IMG/VR virus record: IMGVR_UViG_3300008262_000260
Location: 1-30,682 of that record
Reading direction: 5' to 3' (one strand)
DNA length: 30,682 bases
Source: a virus
Position numbers and translations under genes: made by a program. How positions within the stretch are numbered: the stretch's first letter is position 1; each line of letters opens with the position of its first letter. This document shows positions 12,322 through 28,684 of the stretch, piece by piece. Below the pieces are notes generated by a model, which was not told the DNA's origin, searched no databases, and saw nothing but the letters and a program-made list of their open reading frames with translations.

Positions 12322-12504
12322 TTACCATTCTCCATCATCAATAACAACTCTTGTCCAAAATGGACCAAGAGACAAAAAGAACCCATGTGCTTTTGGGTTC
12401 AGGTCATCGGGTTGTATCGTAGTAAAACGAACTTCCCAATGGAATGGGTTAACAACAAGCCCAATCCATATTCCAGAATGCTTAAGATAGTTCTTTAACA
12501 TCAT
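12322..12504 (-). CDS. Small conserved phage protein
   Basis: 60 residues, with GIWIGLVVNPFHWEVRFTT in the first half and FFLSLGPFWTRVVIDDGEW at the end. The pattern (NPFHW, LGPxWxRxVIDDG) looks like a short unnamed protein found in many phages. It is probably a small beta-rich protein. No catalytic motif is seen. It overlaps the end of the ClpP-like gene by 23 bases and stops just before the next small gene. Confidence 0.6.
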   Translation of the reverse strand: MMLKNYLKHSGIWIGLVVNPFHWEVRFTTIQPDDLNPKAHGFFLSLGPFWTRVVIDDGEW

Positions 12505-13042
12505 CGCATAATCCTAGTTTCTTTGCTTCAATAGCACTAAGCCAAACATCTTGAGGAGGCAATAGAACTTCTCTAATCTTAGCATCCGTCAATCCCGTAC
12601 ATTTCTTGTAGTGAGAAATCATTCGTTTAGTGGTTAAGTCAAATTCTTTAATCTGCGCAAACAATTCATGTTCCTTACCAAAAGCACCCCATGAGTATTG
12701 ATGAGAAAGAATAGAAGTATTTGGTGTTAGAATTCGTTGACCCTTATCGCCAGAGATGAAAATCATCAATCCAGCAGAAGCAATTTGTCCAAGACCAATA
12801 GTTCTAATAGGAATGGCAGAGCCACGCATAGTATCAACTAATGCAAACGCAGCATTAAGATCTCCACCTGGAGAGCAGATAACCAAATTTAACATATCAG
12901 GTCGTTGTTCTCCAAAATTACATTCGAAGATCCACTCAACCGCACTCTTACAAGATTCTAACGTAATATCTTCCATTAACAAGAAGAAAGAATGTTTAGA
13001 ATTCTGTTCTTCCTTTAGTTGAAGATTGAGTTTTTGCATCAT
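12482..13042 (-). CDS. ClpP-like serine protease
   Basis: 186 residues from the ATG at 13042. The ClpP fold is clear: LVICSPGGDLNAAFALVDTM (oxyanion loop), GLGQIASAGLMIF with catalytic Ser89, ILSHQYSWG with His114, and PPQDVWLSAIEAKKLGLCDD with Asp165. All three catalytic residues are present. Phage ClpP-like proteins occur as prohead proteases in other phages, but here there is no link to capsid genes; a ClpP that pairs with a host AAA+ unfoldase is equally possible. An upstream in-frame start (13081) lies inside the endolysin gene; AAGG at 8 bases supports 13042. Confidence 0.85.
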   Translation of the reverse strand: MMQKLNLQLKEEQNSKHSFFLLMEDITLESCKSAVEWIFECNFGEQRPDMLNLVICSPGGDLNAAFALVDTMRGSAIPIRTIGLGQIASAGLMIFISGDKGQRILTPNTSILSHQYSWGAFGKEHELFAQIKEFDLTTKRMISHYKKCTGLTDAKIREVLLPPQDVWLSAIEAKKLGLCDDVKELS

Positions 13043-13565
13043 GTTCATTACCTTTATAAAATATATGGCGTCCAATAACAACAGTCTTATGTAATTTCCA
13101 TCCTGGGTTTACATAATCTGCATGGTAGTACAAAGAGCCCTTTGTTATGTCTACTATGTTTTCATAGTTTGAGTAGACATGAAGAGCTACTTTTCTAACT
13201 TCTTCGTATACTGCACTGTTTTTACGTGGTACGTTCATACAGAACCAAGAAAATTGACAAGTAGAATTTGTTTTCTGCTTGACAACTCCACACACGTCTT
13301 TTGGAAATGCAGGATGGTTAACTCTATTTAACGTTACCAGAGCAACAGCTACTTGACCCGATTGTGGTTCATACGCCGATTCATAATATATGTTATCTGC
13401 AAGACAGTCAATTTGCTTCTTGGCAGATGGTGTTAATTCTGAGTAATCAACATTAAGCAATCTTGGTTCTAAGGAACCAATAGTTTTAGCTGTGTAAAGC
13501 ATAACGCAAATACTAAACACTGCAACTAAAATTTGAAATAATAGATACTTCTTTTCTTTTTGCAT
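12996..13565 (-). CDS. Cell wall hydrolase (SleB / Hydrolase_2), putative signal-anchored endolysin
   Basis: 189 residues. A hydrophobic segment at residues 7-25 (YLLFQILVAVFSICVMLYT) would send the protein to the membrane, as in SAR-type endolysins. The enzyme domain follows: CLADNIYYESAYEPQSGQVA with the catalytic Glu62, ALVTLNRVNHPAFP, CQFSWFC, YYHADYVNPGW and IGRHIFYK. These are the SleB family motifs (lytic transglycosylase/amidase type enzymes that cut peptidoglycan). It overlaps the ClpP-like gene by 47 bases. A GH19 enzyme at 20762-21382 is a second candidate lysin. The start has a purine-rich ribosome site (AGGAGAG). Confidence 0.85.
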   Translation of the reverse strand: MQKEKKYLLFQILVAVFSICVMLYTAKTIGSLEPRLLNVDYSELTPSAKKQIDCLADNIYYESAYEPQSGQVAVALVTLNRVNHPAFPKDVCGVVKQKTNSTCQFSWFCMNVPRKNSAVYEEVRKVALHVYSNYENIVDITKGSLYYHADYVNPGWKLHKTVVIGRHIFYKGNEHDAKTQSSTKGRTEF

Positions 13566-14415: not shown

Positions 14416-14432
14416 CTAGCTTCCTTATTAGT

Positions 14433-14619
14433 GGTTGGTTATTCTGTTACGAGGAAACCAACCGAAACCCTAGTCAGCGTTTAGGCTGCCAATGCGTAGA
14501 CAGAGTCGTTTGCATTTACTTTGTTTTGCTTCTTCGACCGAGTTTCCCCAATCCTACGGGTTTCACATTCCCGTGTTGCCGTCTCTACTATCTACCTCTG
14601 TCGAAACCAAGGCACCCCC
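14433..14619 (-). ncRNA. ssrA: Permuted tmRNA, coding piece (5' half of the mature RNA)
   Basis: On the minus strand the piece starts GGGGGTGCCTTGGTTTCGAC, the typical tmRNA 5' end. GGGGGTG (14619-14613) pairs over 7 positions with CACCTCC of the acceptor piece (14776-14770, one G-U), and CAGAGG (14600-14595) pairs with CTTCTG (14802-14797), giving helix 2. A hairpin ACGGG/CCCGT follows in the pseudoknot-1 region. The tag reading frame encodes ANDSVYALAA. The piece ends with a perfect 8-bp hairpin, GGTTGGTT/AACCAACC (14463-14456 and 14440-14433). The exact 3' end is not known. tmRNA rescues stalled ribosomes together with SmpB, which is not in this window. Confidence 0.9.
14481..14513 (-). 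other. tmRNA tag frame, ANDSVYALAA
   Basis: The resume codon GCA (14513-14511) is followed by AAC GAC TCT GTC TAC GCA TTG GCA GCC and the stop TAA. The tag has the AND start and the YALAA end of proteobacterial tags (E. coli: ANDENYALAA), so the ClpXP and SspB recognition ends are kept while the middle (SV) differs. Confidence 0.92.
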
Positions 14620-14754
14620 ATCAGTAAAACTCTTTAGCCATTCAGTGGCATCTGTTGAACTATCAAAGTAAGGAGAGATGCAACGCTTTTTGCTATCTAT
14701 CCAAAAGTAGGTATAAGTATTCATCCCCGAATCTCTATACTTGATAAGTTCCAT
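14563..14754 (-). CDS. Small ORF in the tmRNA intervening segment
   Basis: 63 codons from an ATG (14754) with AGGA five bases upstream. It starts 12 bases after the CCA end of the acceptor piece. Residues 11-41 (MNTYTYFWIDSKKRCISPYF, then TDATEWLK) look like a real small protein of the kind found in phages. The last 19 codons lie inside the mature tmRNA coding piece: GGALVSTEVDS is simply the translation of the tmRNA 5' end. So either this ORF is translated before the precursor is processed, or the original gene was cut short by the tmRNA. No function is recognised. Confidence 0.5.
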   Translation of the reverse strand: MELIKYRDSGMNTYTYFWIDSKKRCISPYFDSSTDATEWLKSFTDGGALVSTEVDSRDGNTGM

Positions 14755-14765
14755 AAAAGTCCTAT

Positions 14766-14830
14766 TGGTGGAGGTGGTGGGAGTCGAACCCACGTCCAGA
14801 AGTCCTTCGCTTTGAAGGGATTACAACAAT
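14766..14830 (-). ncRNA. ssrA: Permuted tmRNA, acceptor piece (3' half of the mature RNA)
   Basis: This piece lies upstream of the coding piece in transcription order, as in circularly permuted ssrA genes. It contains a hairpin CCTTC/GAAGG (14818-14814 and 14808-14804), the helix-2 strand CTTCTG, the T arm GTGGG-TTCGACT-CCCAC (14793-14777), the acceptor strand CACCTCC, discriminator A and an encoded CCA ending at 14766. Its 5' end is uncertain (about 14820-14833, just after the stop of the preceding gene). The 146 bases between the CCA and the coding piece would be removed during maturation. Confidence 0.88.
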
Positions 14831-14833
14831 TCC

Positions 14834-15043
14834 TTATAAACCTCCGTTTGGTTGAGTTGCTTTTACAAGCATTACTCTACCGTTTGCAGAGATCTGTAAT
14901 TTAAACATATCGCCATCTTTCCATCCATTAGGTAAAGTTCCCCAAACTTGGTCAGGTTTCTTTTCCTGTGATGCAAGATGCAATTCTTCGTCAAACAGAA
15001 TGTATCCATCCGAAAGATCAAAATGGTAATCAATGTATAACAT
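14834..15043 (-). CDS. Small protein gene directly upstream of the tmRNA
   Basis: 69 residues: a strand-rich start (MLYIDYHFDLSDGYILFDEE), then DQVWGTLPNGWKDGDMFKLQ and ISANGRVMLVKATQPNGG. 'LPNGWKDGDxFKL...GRVMLVK' looks like an AbrB-like small swapped-hairpin fold, but I do not recognise the family. A stop codon (TAA, frame of the ATG) lies close upstream, so no longer start exists. Oddly, the -10 box of a strong promoter ends one base before this ATG, so transcripts from that promoter would lack the start codon; the gene then needs read-through transcription from upstream. Confidence 0.55.
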   Translation of the reverse strand: MLYIDYHFDLSDGYILFDEELHLASQEKKPDQVWGTLPNGWKDGDMFKLQISANGRVMLVKATQPNGGL

Positions 15044-15044
15044 G

Positions 15045-15073
15045 ATTATACCCCTTAATTATTTGCAAGTCAA
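15045..15073 (-). promoter_or_regulatory. Sigma70 promoter upstream of the tmRNA locus
   Basis: -35 TTGACT (15068-15073), 17-base spacer, -10 TATAAT (15045-15050), minus strand. The expected start (about 15038) lies inside the 69-codon gene, after its ATG, about 205 bases before the acceptor piece. The likely product is the tmRNA precursor. The -35 overlaps the last codons of the nuclease gene. Confidence 0.85.
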
Positions 15074-18347: not shown

Positions 18348-18508
18348 AACATACCAAAAACGTTCATTTCTTTTAACTGATCTACGCTATACATCATTTG
18401 TTCAGGAAACCTAAATGTTAAGTTATAATCTTCAGGTTCATTATCATAAACAGCTAAAACATGGTGTTCTTTATCAATTTCTTCAAGATCTTTCAGTTGA
18501 TTTAGCAC
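18344..18508 (-). CDS. Small protein between the PP-loop gene and desaturase
   Basis: 54 residues from a GTG start at 18508, preceded by AAGGTG at 7 bases. Begins with a charged helix (LNQLKDLEEIDKEHH), then a strand-like VLAVYDNEPEDYNLTFRF and ends PEQMMYSVDQLKEMNVFGML. No family recognised. It overlaps the desaturase end by 26 bases and its TGA overlaps the ATG of the PP-loop gene, so it fills the gap exactly; this arrangement is the main support for it being real. Confidence 0.6.
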   Translation of the reverse strand: MLNQLKDLEEIDKEHHVLAVYDNEPEDYNLTFRFPEQMMYSVDQLKEMNVFGML

Positions 18509-19214
18509 GAGATATCACCTTTATAAAAAAACCACCCAAATCAAAAAACTCAGGTCTATGATTGAATATAACAATTCTTGGATCATTATGATGTTCTTTA
18601 TGTATCCACTCTCCAGCCATTGGGATTACGAATTCTAAAAACCAATAATTTCTAGGAGTTTTATCTTTATGCGCTGTAATTGTGTGTATACCGCTAGTTA
18701 CAAGATAAAGACTAATTGGTAATCCATAGAGAAAAACCAAACCAGGGATACCAAATAATAAACAAACAAGTACAAGGTAAATTACACTTAGACTAAAGGA
18801 ATGCTCAAAGAAAAACTTATGGCGAGGATCCCTTAACATCTTTAATGAATGTTTAGATAACTTTATATCTATCCTATCTTTAAATCTTAAAAAATGTCTA
18901 TATGTAGAATCATACGGATCATTATCTGTATCTGAATGCTTGTGATGTAAAATGTGAACAGAAGACCACTCAACTGGAGATGAGTTAATACTTATACATC
19001 CAGTGATTGAATATGCATATTCCCAAAATCTAGAACAAGAATACATATTATGCGTAAAGTATCTATGATAACCAGCAGTAATAGTTATGGCTATCCAAAA
19101 ATATAGCAACAAAGATACAACAATCCAGGGAATGGTAGCATAATAAACAGATAATGCAAAAAAGATTGGGAGCAACCAAGCTCCCAATGATCTATGTATA
19201 GACTTGGTTTTCAT
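18483..19214 (-). CDS. Membrane fatty acid desaturase
   Basis: 243 residues with the three His boxes of acyl desaturases: HRYFTH (50-55), HILHHKH (87-93) and HKEHH (205-209), which bind the di-iron centre. Four hydrophobic segments (about 10-25, 28-49, 143-160, 163-180) place the enzyme in the membrane. It is of the delta-9 type (acyl-CoA/acyl-lipid) and shorter than most bacterial ones (about 300). Its role would be to add double bonds to membrane lipids during infection; such genes are known as auxiliary metabolic genes in aquatic phages. ATGA overlap with the upstream gene. Very AT-rich (a sampled line is about 18% GC). Confidence 0.88.
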   Translation of the reverse strand: MKTKSIHRSLGAWLLPIFFALSVYYATIPWIVVSLLLYFWIAITITAGYHRYFTHNMYSCSRFWEYAYSITGCISINSSPVEWSSVHILHHKHSDTDNDPYDSTYRHFLRFKDRIDIKLSKHSLKMLRDPRHKFFFEHSFSLSVIYLVLVCLLFGIPGLVFLYGLPISLYLVTSGIHTITAHKDKTPRNYWFLEFVIPMAGEWIHKEHHNDPRIVIFNHRPEFFDLGGFFIKVISRAKSTERS

Positions 19215-26959: not shown

Positions 26960-27108
26960 CTGTACACTACCCCATGCATTGGGAACATTAAGCTACAATT
27001 ACAGGATCTTCCCTGATTACAGTCTCCCGTACAGTCACCCTTTGGTAACCTGCGCAGGATTGTTATGGCAATAGCTACCATGATTAGTATAATTAGTAAA
27101 GCAATCAT
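26926..27108 (-). CDS. Small membrane peptide with Cys cluster
   Basis: 60 residues. MIALLIILIMVAIAITIL is one membrane helix, followed by basic RRLPK and the Cys motif GDCTGDCNQGRSCNCS. 'GDCxxxCNQGRxCxC' is a repeated theme in short phage and bacterial membrane peptides of unknown role. The last 20 residues are less typical. The Cys cluster could bind a metal. Its ATG overlaps the stop of the next gene upstream (4 bases). Confidence 0.65.
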   Translation of the reverse strand: MIALLIILIMVAIAITILRRLPKGDCTGDCNQGRSCNCSLMFPMHGVVYRCLASLEWNRM

Positions 27109-27317
27109 TCTTCAACTCCAAAACGTCTACGGATAATTCTGGCGATATCAATCTCACCGTCTCGCACATATCCATCTGCAGTATTAGCACAATCCTGTAT
27201 AATAATCTTAGTATACCTAGTCAACGCAGCTTCCCACTTTTCACGATCTAGCCCTAGTCCATAGACATCTAGATTAGACTCCCTAGCAGCGGATCGAATT
27301 ATATCAAGGTCGTTCAT
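27105..27317 (-). CDS. Member of the FAELIVREC-type small protein family (divergent)
   Basis: 70 residues: MNDLDIIRSAARESNLDVYG at the start, a central KIIIQDCANTADGYV where its relatives have FAELIVRECADIA, and a RIIRRRFGVEE end that matches the family's 'HFGVEE'. One of four related genes in the 27105-28684 stretch. Helical, acidic, function unknown. The ribosome site is AGAGGTGAAGA. Confidence 0.6.
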   Translation of the reverse strand: MNDLDIIRSAARESNLDVYGLGLDREKWEAALTRYTKIIIQDCANTADGYVRDGEIDIARIIRRRFGVEE

Positions 27318-27427
27318 TCTTCACCTCTTACTTTGCTAGAACGCATACTTGGGATTGCCAACAATAGTGTGCGGATACACAGCCAGACATAAACAGGCAT
27401 AAACAAAAAATAAAATTGCTCATTCAC
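27314..27427 (-). CDS. Small membrane peptide (GTG start)
   Basis: 37 residues from a GTG at 27427: MNEQFYFLFMPVYVWLCIRT, LLLAIPSMRSS and a basic KVRGEE end. One membrane helix. The TGA overlaps the ATG of the following gene (ATGA), as for most genes in this block. Another frame in the same place (27328-27423) encodes a 31-residue peptide with a lipobox-like MSGC; the GTG frame is preferred because it reaches the next start and has a basic C-terminus. Confidence 0.45.
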   Translation of the reverse strand: MNEQFYFLFMPVYVWLCIRTLLLAIPSMRSSKVRGEE

Positions 27428-27605
27428 TAACTCCAAAATGTTGTTTAATCATAACAGCTGCTTCTAGCGACTTCGCATTCCTAGCCGTATCAATACATTC
27501 CCGAACAATCAACTCGGCGAACTTTTCTAGTTTAGTTGGAATACCTTCTGGATTGTACGTTGGCAATCCAGCCTCATGAGCAAGTTGTTTAATTCGTTCG
27601 TTCAT
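27420..27605 (-). CDS. FAELIVREC-type small protein
   Basis: 61 residues: MNERIKQLAHEAGLPTYNPE, then KFAELIVRECIDTARNAKSL and a VMIKQHFGVSE end. It is nearly collinear with the proteins at 27776-27991 and 28469-28684. The conserved Cys in VREC is kept. A helical protein of unknown function; such proteins are common in T4-like phages as arrays of paralogues. It ends at the start region of the GTG peptide gene. Confidence 0.7.
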   Translation of the reverse strand: MNERIKQLAHEAGLPTYNPEGIPTKLEKFAELIVRECIDTARNAKSLEAAVMIKQHFGVSE

Positions 27606-27608
27606 TTG

Positions 27609-27779
27609 TCAGATTATGGGACTATTGGTTATAGTACGATATTGTTTCTTATTGCAGATGATACAGAATCTTTGCTGGCGTTCTTCACCATCATAACCAG
27701 AACAAGTCCCAGTATCAGACCATTTACCATAGAAGTGAGTAAATGGTAAGATGTGTAGAATCCTAATCAGTATGTTCAT
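27609..27779 (-). CDS. Small CxxC protein
   Basis: 56 residues from the ATG at 27777-27779. Begins MNILIRILHILPFTHFYGKW and continues through TCSGYDGEERQQRFCIICNK to KQYRTITNSPII. Cys residues at CSG and FCIIC may form a zinc-binding site; 'HFYGKW......r.C..C.k.q.R' looks like a short phage zinc ribbon. The ATG overlaps the stop of the upstream paralogue gene (ATGA). Confidence 0.65.
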   Translation of the reverse strand: MNILIRILHILPFTHFYGKWSDTGTCSGYDGEERQQRFCIICNKKQYRTITNSPII

Positions 27780-27991
27780 TCTTCAACTCCGAAATGTTCT
27801 TGGATCATTAGATACACTTTGCTATCCACTCTTGTATTCAGTCGGGCAATATCAGCACATTCCCTGACAATCAACTCAGCGAACTTTTCCATAAAATTCA
27901 CTTGAGTTTCCCAAGAGTTATTTTGTCCGCTTGGAAAGGTGGTTGTAGATTTAGCCGCCTCGTCCCAAAGTTCTTGAATACGTGGGTTCAT
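27776..27991 (-). CDS. FAELIVREC-type small protein
   Basis: 71 residues: MNPRIQELWDEAAKSTTTFP, then a Gly/Asn insert, FMEKFAELIVRECADIARLN and a VYLMIQEHFGVEE end. It shares the FAELIVREC core and the HFGVxE end with its neighbour at 27420-27605. Between paralogues lie unrelated small genes, so the copies are dispersed rather than strictly tandem. Function unknown. Confidence 0.7.
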   Translation of the reverse strand: MNPRIQELWDEAAKSTTTFPSGQNNSWETQVNFMEKFAELIVRECADIARLNTRVDSKVYLMIQEHFGVEE

Positions 27992-28164
27992 TCTTTTGAC
28001 CTCAACATTTCAAACAACTCTTTTCCAAGTTTATTTGTGAATTCTTCCTCAGTCATTGTAACAAGAGTATCCATTGCTAGTTCCATGGGTAATCTCAATA
28101 CAATTTCCATTTCTGGAGCAAAGGTATCTGGATTCATTTTTATGTGTCTGCTAACTAGTTTCAT
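27988..28164 (-). CDS. Small helical protein
   Basis: 58 residues from the ATG at 28162-28164, starting MKLVSRHIKMNPDTFAPEME and continuing VLRLPMELAMDTLVTMTEEE, ending FEMLRSKE. It reads like a small acidic regulator-type protein with two helices. No family recognised. Both ends are ATGA overlaps with neighbours, which supports it as a real gene that is too short for usual cut-offs. Confidence 0.6.
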   Translation of the reverse strand: MKLVSRHIKMNPDTFAPEMEIVLRLPMELAMDTLVTMTEEEFTNKLGKELFEMLRSKE

Positions 28165-28472
28165 ACATTGTTCCTTCCGATTCTACTATAGCCTAACTTG
28201 CTTTTAATTTCTTTACGATCTCTGTTTTTCTCTGGTTTCCATGCCCTAGGATCAACTGTTTGACCAGTTAACTCATAACGAAAGTCCGGATCATAAACCA
28301 TATATCCTAGCTTGTTCCATTTAATTACGCCATCATTGAATAGAAAGATACAACCGCGACACATACAGAAACTAGCACCCTTGTCGCTCATTACATTGCC
28401 ATTCACTGTGCCAACATACTTGACCACATTACCCTGGTGCATTTCTCGCAGGGCTTCAAAGTAATCTATCAT
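28161..28472 (-). CDS. Conserved phage protein, DUF2829-like outline
   Basis: 103 residues. The start MIDYFEALREMHQGNVVKYV has the 'F.EAL..m..G..V' opening seen in DUF2829-type phage proteins; then GASFCMCRGCIFLFNDGVIK and KLGYMVYDPDFRYELTG. DUF2829 includes the Tad2 anti-Thoeris proteins, but I see no basis to say this one binds a signalling molecule. Three Cys in CMCRGC could bind a metal. The stop overlaps the next ATG. Confidence 0.5.
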   Translation of the reverse strand: MIDYFEALREMHQGNVVKYVGTVNGNVMSDKGASFCMCRGCIFLFNDGVIKWNKLGYMVYDPDFRYELTGQTVDPRAWKPEKNRDRKEIKSKLGYSRIGRNNV

Positions 28473-28684
28473 AGTTCACTCCCGAATAAAAGTTCTTTGA
28501 AATACTTTTGATAATCAACATCCATGCCTTTTGCATGTTCTGCATGTTTGGCACATTCCCGAACAATCAACTCGGCGAACTTTTCTTTGTTAAATTCCGG
28601 CATGACCGTCAGACGCCCATATTCATCATGGTGTCCTTTTGTGTAACCAGCCTGTTCAGCAAGTTGTTTAATTAGTTCGTTCAT
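28469..28684 (-). CDS. FAELIVREC-type small protein
   Basis: 71 residues: MNELIKQLAEQAGYTKGHHD, then EKFAELIVRECAKHAEHAKG and FKELLFGSEL. Same opening ('MNe.IkqLaeqAG') and core as at 27420-27605, with a His-rich insert and a changed end (LFGSE in place of HFGVE). It overlaps the start of the downstream gene by 4 bases and the end of the upstream gene by 17. Confidence 0.7.
   Translation of the reverse strand: MNELIKQLAEQAGYTKGHHDEYGRLTVMPEFNKEKFAELIVRECAKHAEHAKGMDVDYQKYFKELLFGSEL

Follow-up and report, generated by a model that had tools for sequence, protein, structure and literature searches.

A protein gene inside the spacer of a phage-encoded permuted tmRNA and a probable double use of that spacer

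The window, by which we mean the whole 30,682-nucleotide stretch of DNA analysed here, is a virus record with T4-like genes, among them those for a single-strand DNA binding protein, a DNA end protector and an exonuclease. On its minus strand, positions 14425–14828 were confirmed by RNA models as the gene of a circularly permuted (two-piece) tmRNA with the tag ANDSVYALAA. Two Rfam models matched that strand over their full length: tmRNA_permuted (RF04321) scored 126.5 bits at 14828..14481 (gathering threshold 47, E = 1.1e-24), and beta_tmRNA (RF01850) scored 110.7 bits at 14870..14425 (gathering threshold 84, E = 3.9e-33). ARAGORN independently called a permuted tmRNA with the tag ANDSVYALAA*. 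With both scores over cut-off, ARAGORN in agreement and T4-like genes in the record, the phage-encoded two-piece tmRNA proposed by the first-pass annotation was upheld.

The acceptor piece (14766..14828, minus strand, 5′ end predicted) contains the T arm, the 3′ acceptor strand and the CCA at 14768–14766; it is placed by the RF04321 and RF01850 alignments and by ARAGORN, and is 94% identical in the sister phage L017. It is encoded upstream of the mRNA-like piece (14425..14619, minus strand; RF01850 and ARAGORN), which begins with GGGGGTG at 14619 and carries the 5′ acceptor strand, TTCGAC, the tag frame and the 3′ structures. The acceptor stem between the two pieces forms 7/7 pairs and the helix-2 strands are paired in the covariance-model alignment, both of which had been claimed from the letters alone. 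Direct reading of GGGGGTG against CACCTCC-ACCA places a G3.U pair (G3.U70), the alanine-identity pair, at acceptor position 3, together with a discriminator A and the encoded CCA. The tag reading frame, ANDSVYALAA-stop (14481..14513, minus strand), ends in the hydrophobic LAA according to ARAGORN, and the RF04321 match ends at its stop codon. The CCA and the GGGGGTG 5′ end are separated by 146 nt (14620..14765, minus strand), which would be absent from the mature tmRNA, are unrelated in L017 and form the cargo slot discussed below. Further upstream, a pattern scan found one candidate sigma70-like promoter, TTGACT-17-TATAAT (15045..15073, minus strand, 11/12 matches), ahead of a 69-aa gene and the tmRNA. 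A search of eight related phage records for an SmpB gene came up empty, and the tmRNA is taken to depend on SmpB from the host. Judged by these features, the gene is a functional-looking two-piece tmRNA of a T4-like phage.

Two-piece tmRNA in aquatic phage is already known and not novel in itself. PMC9004378 describes one in phage Melnitz and gives 53 of 133 phage tmRNA structures as two-piece, 50 of these 53 being aquatic; PMC11915505 catalogues 79 tmRNA sequences from phages, all forms counted. From the tag, a betaproteobacterial host had been tentatively proposed for the window. Neither the tag nor the beta model allows this assignment: beta-type permuted tmRNAs are present in Pseudomonas Samunavirus isolates, and Pseudomonas is a gammaproteobacterium. 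RF01850 fits these phages too, so the beta model cannot name the host, and AND...ALAA tags occur in many viral tmRNAs. In the Samunavirus isolates L002 and L003, the beta-type permuted tmRNA is unannotated and has the tag ANDTSFDVRLAA; the tmRNA of the host group is one-piece.

The coordinates of the 146-base segment, with ends at 14619 and 14766, agree with those first proposed, but the segment had been treated as inert, yet it holds a conserved protein gene. This nested ORF (14563..14754, minus strand), which we call family A, has 63 codons, 45 in the spacer and 18 in the mRNA-like piece of the tmRNA, with its ATG at 14754 and its TGA at 14565–14563. Its Shine-Dalgarno (SD) sequence AGGA (14760..14763, minus strand) was read directly 2 nt past the mature CCA end, a layout found in all 47 nested ORFs of the survey below. 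The frame stays open to the expected RNase P site, reaches it at an exact codon boundary and continues into the tmRNA; the protein reads MELIKYRDSGMNTYTYFWIDSKKRCISPYFDSSTDATEWLKSFTD up to the junction and GGAL.. beyond it. Family A has relatives in about 57 viral loci, mostly as free-standing genes, in which a core of ∼40 residues is conserved and the C-termini are variable. Inside a tmRNA spacer, it was seen only in the window and in the L004 type (one sequence, two contigs). Between these two nested ORFs, dN is 0.28 and dS is 0.98, a value from one close nested pair, the other relatives being distant and free-standing. On this sequence conservation, we conclude that the window spacer is the carrier of a protein gene under purifying selection.

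AlphaFold predicts a β hairpin plus helix for family A, with good confidence in the core. Fold comparison gave no significant match; the best one (3bid, E 0.04, TM 0.4) is a weak structural resemblance to DUF1508/UPF0339. No relatives of the window ORF, or of two other cargoes described below (MFENW and CxC), were found in the GenBank phage collection, and the window ORF and the MFENW cargo had no or only weak PHROGs matches. In other phages (L006, L015 and L016), family-A genes adjoin arrays of about 18–20 tRNA genes.

Compared to the window, the mature tmRNA pieces of the sister phage L017 are 94% and 96% identical and the flanking DNA is 88–90% identical; its T-stem changes preserve pairing (GTGGG/CCCAC versus GCGAG/CTCGC). 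The L017 spacer is 170 nt long, is unrelated to that of the window and encodes a different protein of 52 residues, which ends at the TGAT leader. In L292, a family-A gene and the MFENWHW.. cargo are free-standing just upstream of the tmRNA, and the spacer holds a third ORF, which starts with GTG. In L073, an ORF of the MENL family lies directly upstream of a tmRNA whose spacer is noncoding. L407, which is related to Melnitz and shares its tmRNA, has a spacer that is short and noncoding. As far as sequence comparison can show, cargo genes swap places between the spacer and a site immediately ahead of the tmRNA.

We surveyed viral permuted tmRNAs by pattern scans that were tied to the CTCCACCA motif and covered a single sequence type of T arm and acceptor, which gives an incomplete set. 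An ORF was counted as nested if its ATG lies within 25 nt of the CCA, an SD is present and the frame fills ≥75% of the spacer. Among the matches listed, the acceptor stem is fully paired around 101 unique spacers, 47 of which carry such an ORF, a fraction inflated because one scan selected for SD and ATG; in the same partly biased set, the other 54 are noncoding. In the scan without this selection, 4 of 46 permuted viral tmRNAs have a nested ORF, against 1.1 expected from shuffles, 14/500 of which reach 4. The case for nested genes rests on protein conservation and not on the count. The tmRNAs around the nested ORFs also pass RF04321 independently.

Among the matches listed, the 47 nested ORFs fall into at least 23 protein clusters without detectable mutual similarity; of 23, 13 end inside the spacer and 10, including those of the window and Melnitz, are open across the junction. 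SD and ATG are at the same place in all 23. In most of the 13 closed clusters, a stop codon within the final bases ahead of the cut closes the ORF; the corresponding place in the window is occupied by the TGAT leader at 14620..14623 (minus strand), directly before the expected RNase P site. Spacers range from 81 to 455 nt and hold very different cargoes. The longest is filled by a staphylococcal-nuclease homologue of 146 codons (PF00565, E = 2.6e-12); several likely membrane peptides and coiled coils are among the others. In nested families with several members, dN is well below dS, with dN/dS of about 0.1–0.4 in pairs with enough change. In the nuclease family, dN is 0.09 and dS is 1.0. In cultured phage Melnitz, the 142-nt spacer holds an unannotated ORF (MFKWLSKTRL..) open across the junction; its family, conserved in viral contigs, has dN of 0.08–0.11 versus dS of 0.30–0.49 and in-frame length changes of 24 nt.

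In isolates from Pseudomonas, Stenotrophomonas and Xanthomonas, the spacers are noncoding and close with a strong terminal helix. A scan of 84,980 prokaryote genomes for the SD+ATG motif gave 46 hits, none of them a permuted tmRNA, and the idea that bacteria in general carry spacer ORFs was rejected as far as this motif alone tests it. One spacer ORF (MVICSCRDIRDSQY..CCGTC, with CxC and CxxC motifs; L055, L171, L216, L225 and L233) resembles a metal or Fe-S binding peptide, and Pfam is unsupportive; its identification as a bacterioferritin-associated ferredoxin, considered for the CxC..CCxxC pattern, was dropped as Pfam gives nothing. The spacers of L051, L079 and L080 share the peptide (D/E)(W/Y)YYT..EWSRLG..GPLP.ERN, which lacks a clear start, and a free-standing ORF of L308 (2811–3023) includes a similar sequence.

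The two ends of the spacer pair with each other. In the window, the terminal helix is formed by the 5′ strand TAGGACTTT (14756..14764, minus strand), which contains the SD, and the 3′ strand AGAGTTTTA (14625..14633, minus strand); both were identified by a duplex permutation test and by the unconstrained minimum free energy fold of the precursor, which contains the acceptor stem together with the spacer terminal helix. For coding spacers, the mean end-to-end duplex energy is −8.79 kcal/mol with true partners versus −4.95 kcal/mol with mismatched ones; for noncoding spacers, it is −12.64 versus −5.46 kcal/mol. In neither group did any of 5000 permutations reach the energy of the true partners. 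Most coding spacers have their SD within the terminal helix, where it is predicted to be occluded; in Melnitz, the SD (GGAG) is mostly outside.

Taken together, we consider it probable that the spacer serves twice, as an RNA helix for tmRNA processing and as a cargo slot for a protein gene, with translation and maturation in competition. The tmRNA and the spacer ORF would be transcribed as one precursor, in which the paired spacer ends extend the acceptor stem and allow the tRNA-like end to fold and to be released: RNase P would cut at 14619, and nucleases would trim back to the CCA at 14766. The spacer would also act as mRNA for a small phage protein, with an SD and ATG of its own right past the CCA. 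Since the SD lies inside the helix needed for tmRNA folding, each transcript is expected to be either translated or processed: early loading of a ribosome, before the helix closes, would lead to translation, and closure of the helix first would lead to processing.

The plainest alternative is an ordinary two-piece phage tmRNA whose spacer ORF is a chance open frame without product. Many viral spacers are indeed noncoding (54/101 in the partly biased set, among the matches listed), and short spacers not uncommonly contain an ORF this long (1.1 per 46 shuffled spacers). However, dozens of phages have a free-standing relative of the window ORF, dN is well below dS in several nested families, 23 unrelated clusters share the position of SD and ATG, and a 455-nt spacer is filled by a nuclease-family ORF of 146 codons. 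We regard this alternative as very improbable; for its rejection we rely on protein conservation instead of ORF length, and the shuffle test is weak on its own. A more serious contender takes the spacer as neutral insertion space, where tolerated genes reside and translation and processing are uncoupled. The great differences in cargo and length (81–455 nt), the entry and exit of genes between related phages and the short noncoding spacer in the Melnitz relative with the same tmRNA are all in its favour, but SD and ATG are almost always located in the pairing end rather than the loop. We give this explanation a substantial chance, on balance short of even.

The expected RNase P cut falls on a codon boundary in the open ORFs, so the cut message would be nonstop. 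It is conceivable, if rather unlikely, that RNase P makes the spacer ORF nonstop by design, and that the 45-codon product is tagged and degraded and would accumulate only when tmRNA or processing is saturated, by analogy with E. coli ArfA, whose mRNA becomes nonstop through RNase III and is subject to repression by trans-translation (PMC10107115). The frame of the window ORF runs without a stop to the cut, which falls exactly between two codons; all ten open clusters include members cut on a codon boundary, L176 and L275 being the only exceptions; and nested copies (..KSFTD at the cut) are without the last few codons and the stop of their free-standing relatives (..KVFDEIQE*). Against this, 13 of 23 clusters have their own stop inside the spacer, so the nonstop state is not general, and with the choice of frames narrowed by the conserved TGAT, the boundary bias has few independent cases behind it. 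Combined with the competition model preferred above, maturation and nested-gene expression may be alternative outcomes of one transcript, in which the RNase P cut yields a nonstop message tagged by its own tmRNA, and the cargo protein would signal, or be switched by, the capacity for ribosome rescue during infection; we put this forward as speculation that is unlikely to hold in full.

Among known systems, Methylophilales phage Melnitz (PMC9004378, MZ577097) is close to the window. Like the window, it is a T4-like aquatic phage with a permuted tmRNA near a PD-(D/E)XK nuclease and a cell-wall hydrolase, and in our analysis its spacer ORF is likewise open across the junction. Different from the window, its tmRNA is alpha-type by the authors' tree and its cargo is another one; the available text of PMC9004378 describes a glutamine riboswitch and no spacer gene, and no CDS is annotated at the spacer. 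Permuted tmRNAs of Betaproteobacteria (RF01850; merged model RF04321, PMC11915505) share with the window the structure, the CCA, the tag type and the spacer between the pieces, but the available text of that source reports no protein gene in the spacers; it mentions one spacer with a tRNA-Ala gene and another with a repetitive element. In intron-form tmRNA genes, group I introns with homing endonuclease genes likewise place a protein gene in the removed part (PMC11915505). As that source describes them, these are self-splicing introns in the T loop, whereas in the phages it is the permutation spacer that holds the gene, no intron is involved and most cargoes are not nucleases. In ArfA, RNA processing also strips the stop and hence creates tmRNA dependence, a likeness of layout only, but it acts through RNase III and a terminator, not RNase P, and on a separate gene (PMC10107115). 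The permuted tmRNA of Hodgkinia (PMC6581868) has, like the window, a spacer (129 nt) with complementary sequences needed for folding; unlike the window, a nested gene is unreported.

The spacer of permuted tmRNAs has hitherto been regarded as discarded RNA. In the open-access literature, we found no report of a gene in a tmRNA spacer and no prior description of this arrangement, which, as the sequences indicate, recurs in other phages with small proteins of at least 23 unrelated kinds. If viral spacers regularly hold protein genes, a class of small phage proteins would have been missed, because annotation tools mask the region as RNA. The arrangement would also be a natural test of one RNA acting both as mRNA and as precursor of a structured RNA, and the spacer ORF of Melnitz, a cultured phage, makes direct testing possible.

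Around the tmRNA, a ClpP-like protease (12482–13081, minus strand; PF00574, E = 1.2e-27) with residues resembling a Ser/His/Asp triad is encoded ∼1.4 kb downstream. Exonuclease, tmRNA, cell-wall hydrolase and ClpP genes co-occur in many related loci, and this clustering suggests a tagging-plus-proteolysis neighbourhood. Elsewhere in the window, 18483–19214 (minus strand) has a weak fatty-acid desaturase match under the cut-off (PF00487, E = 1e-4), and 27105–28684 (minus strand) contains four related small ORFs in tandem (27105, 27420, 27776 and 28469) with the pattern ..K.FAELIVREC.., which form a local paralogous family.
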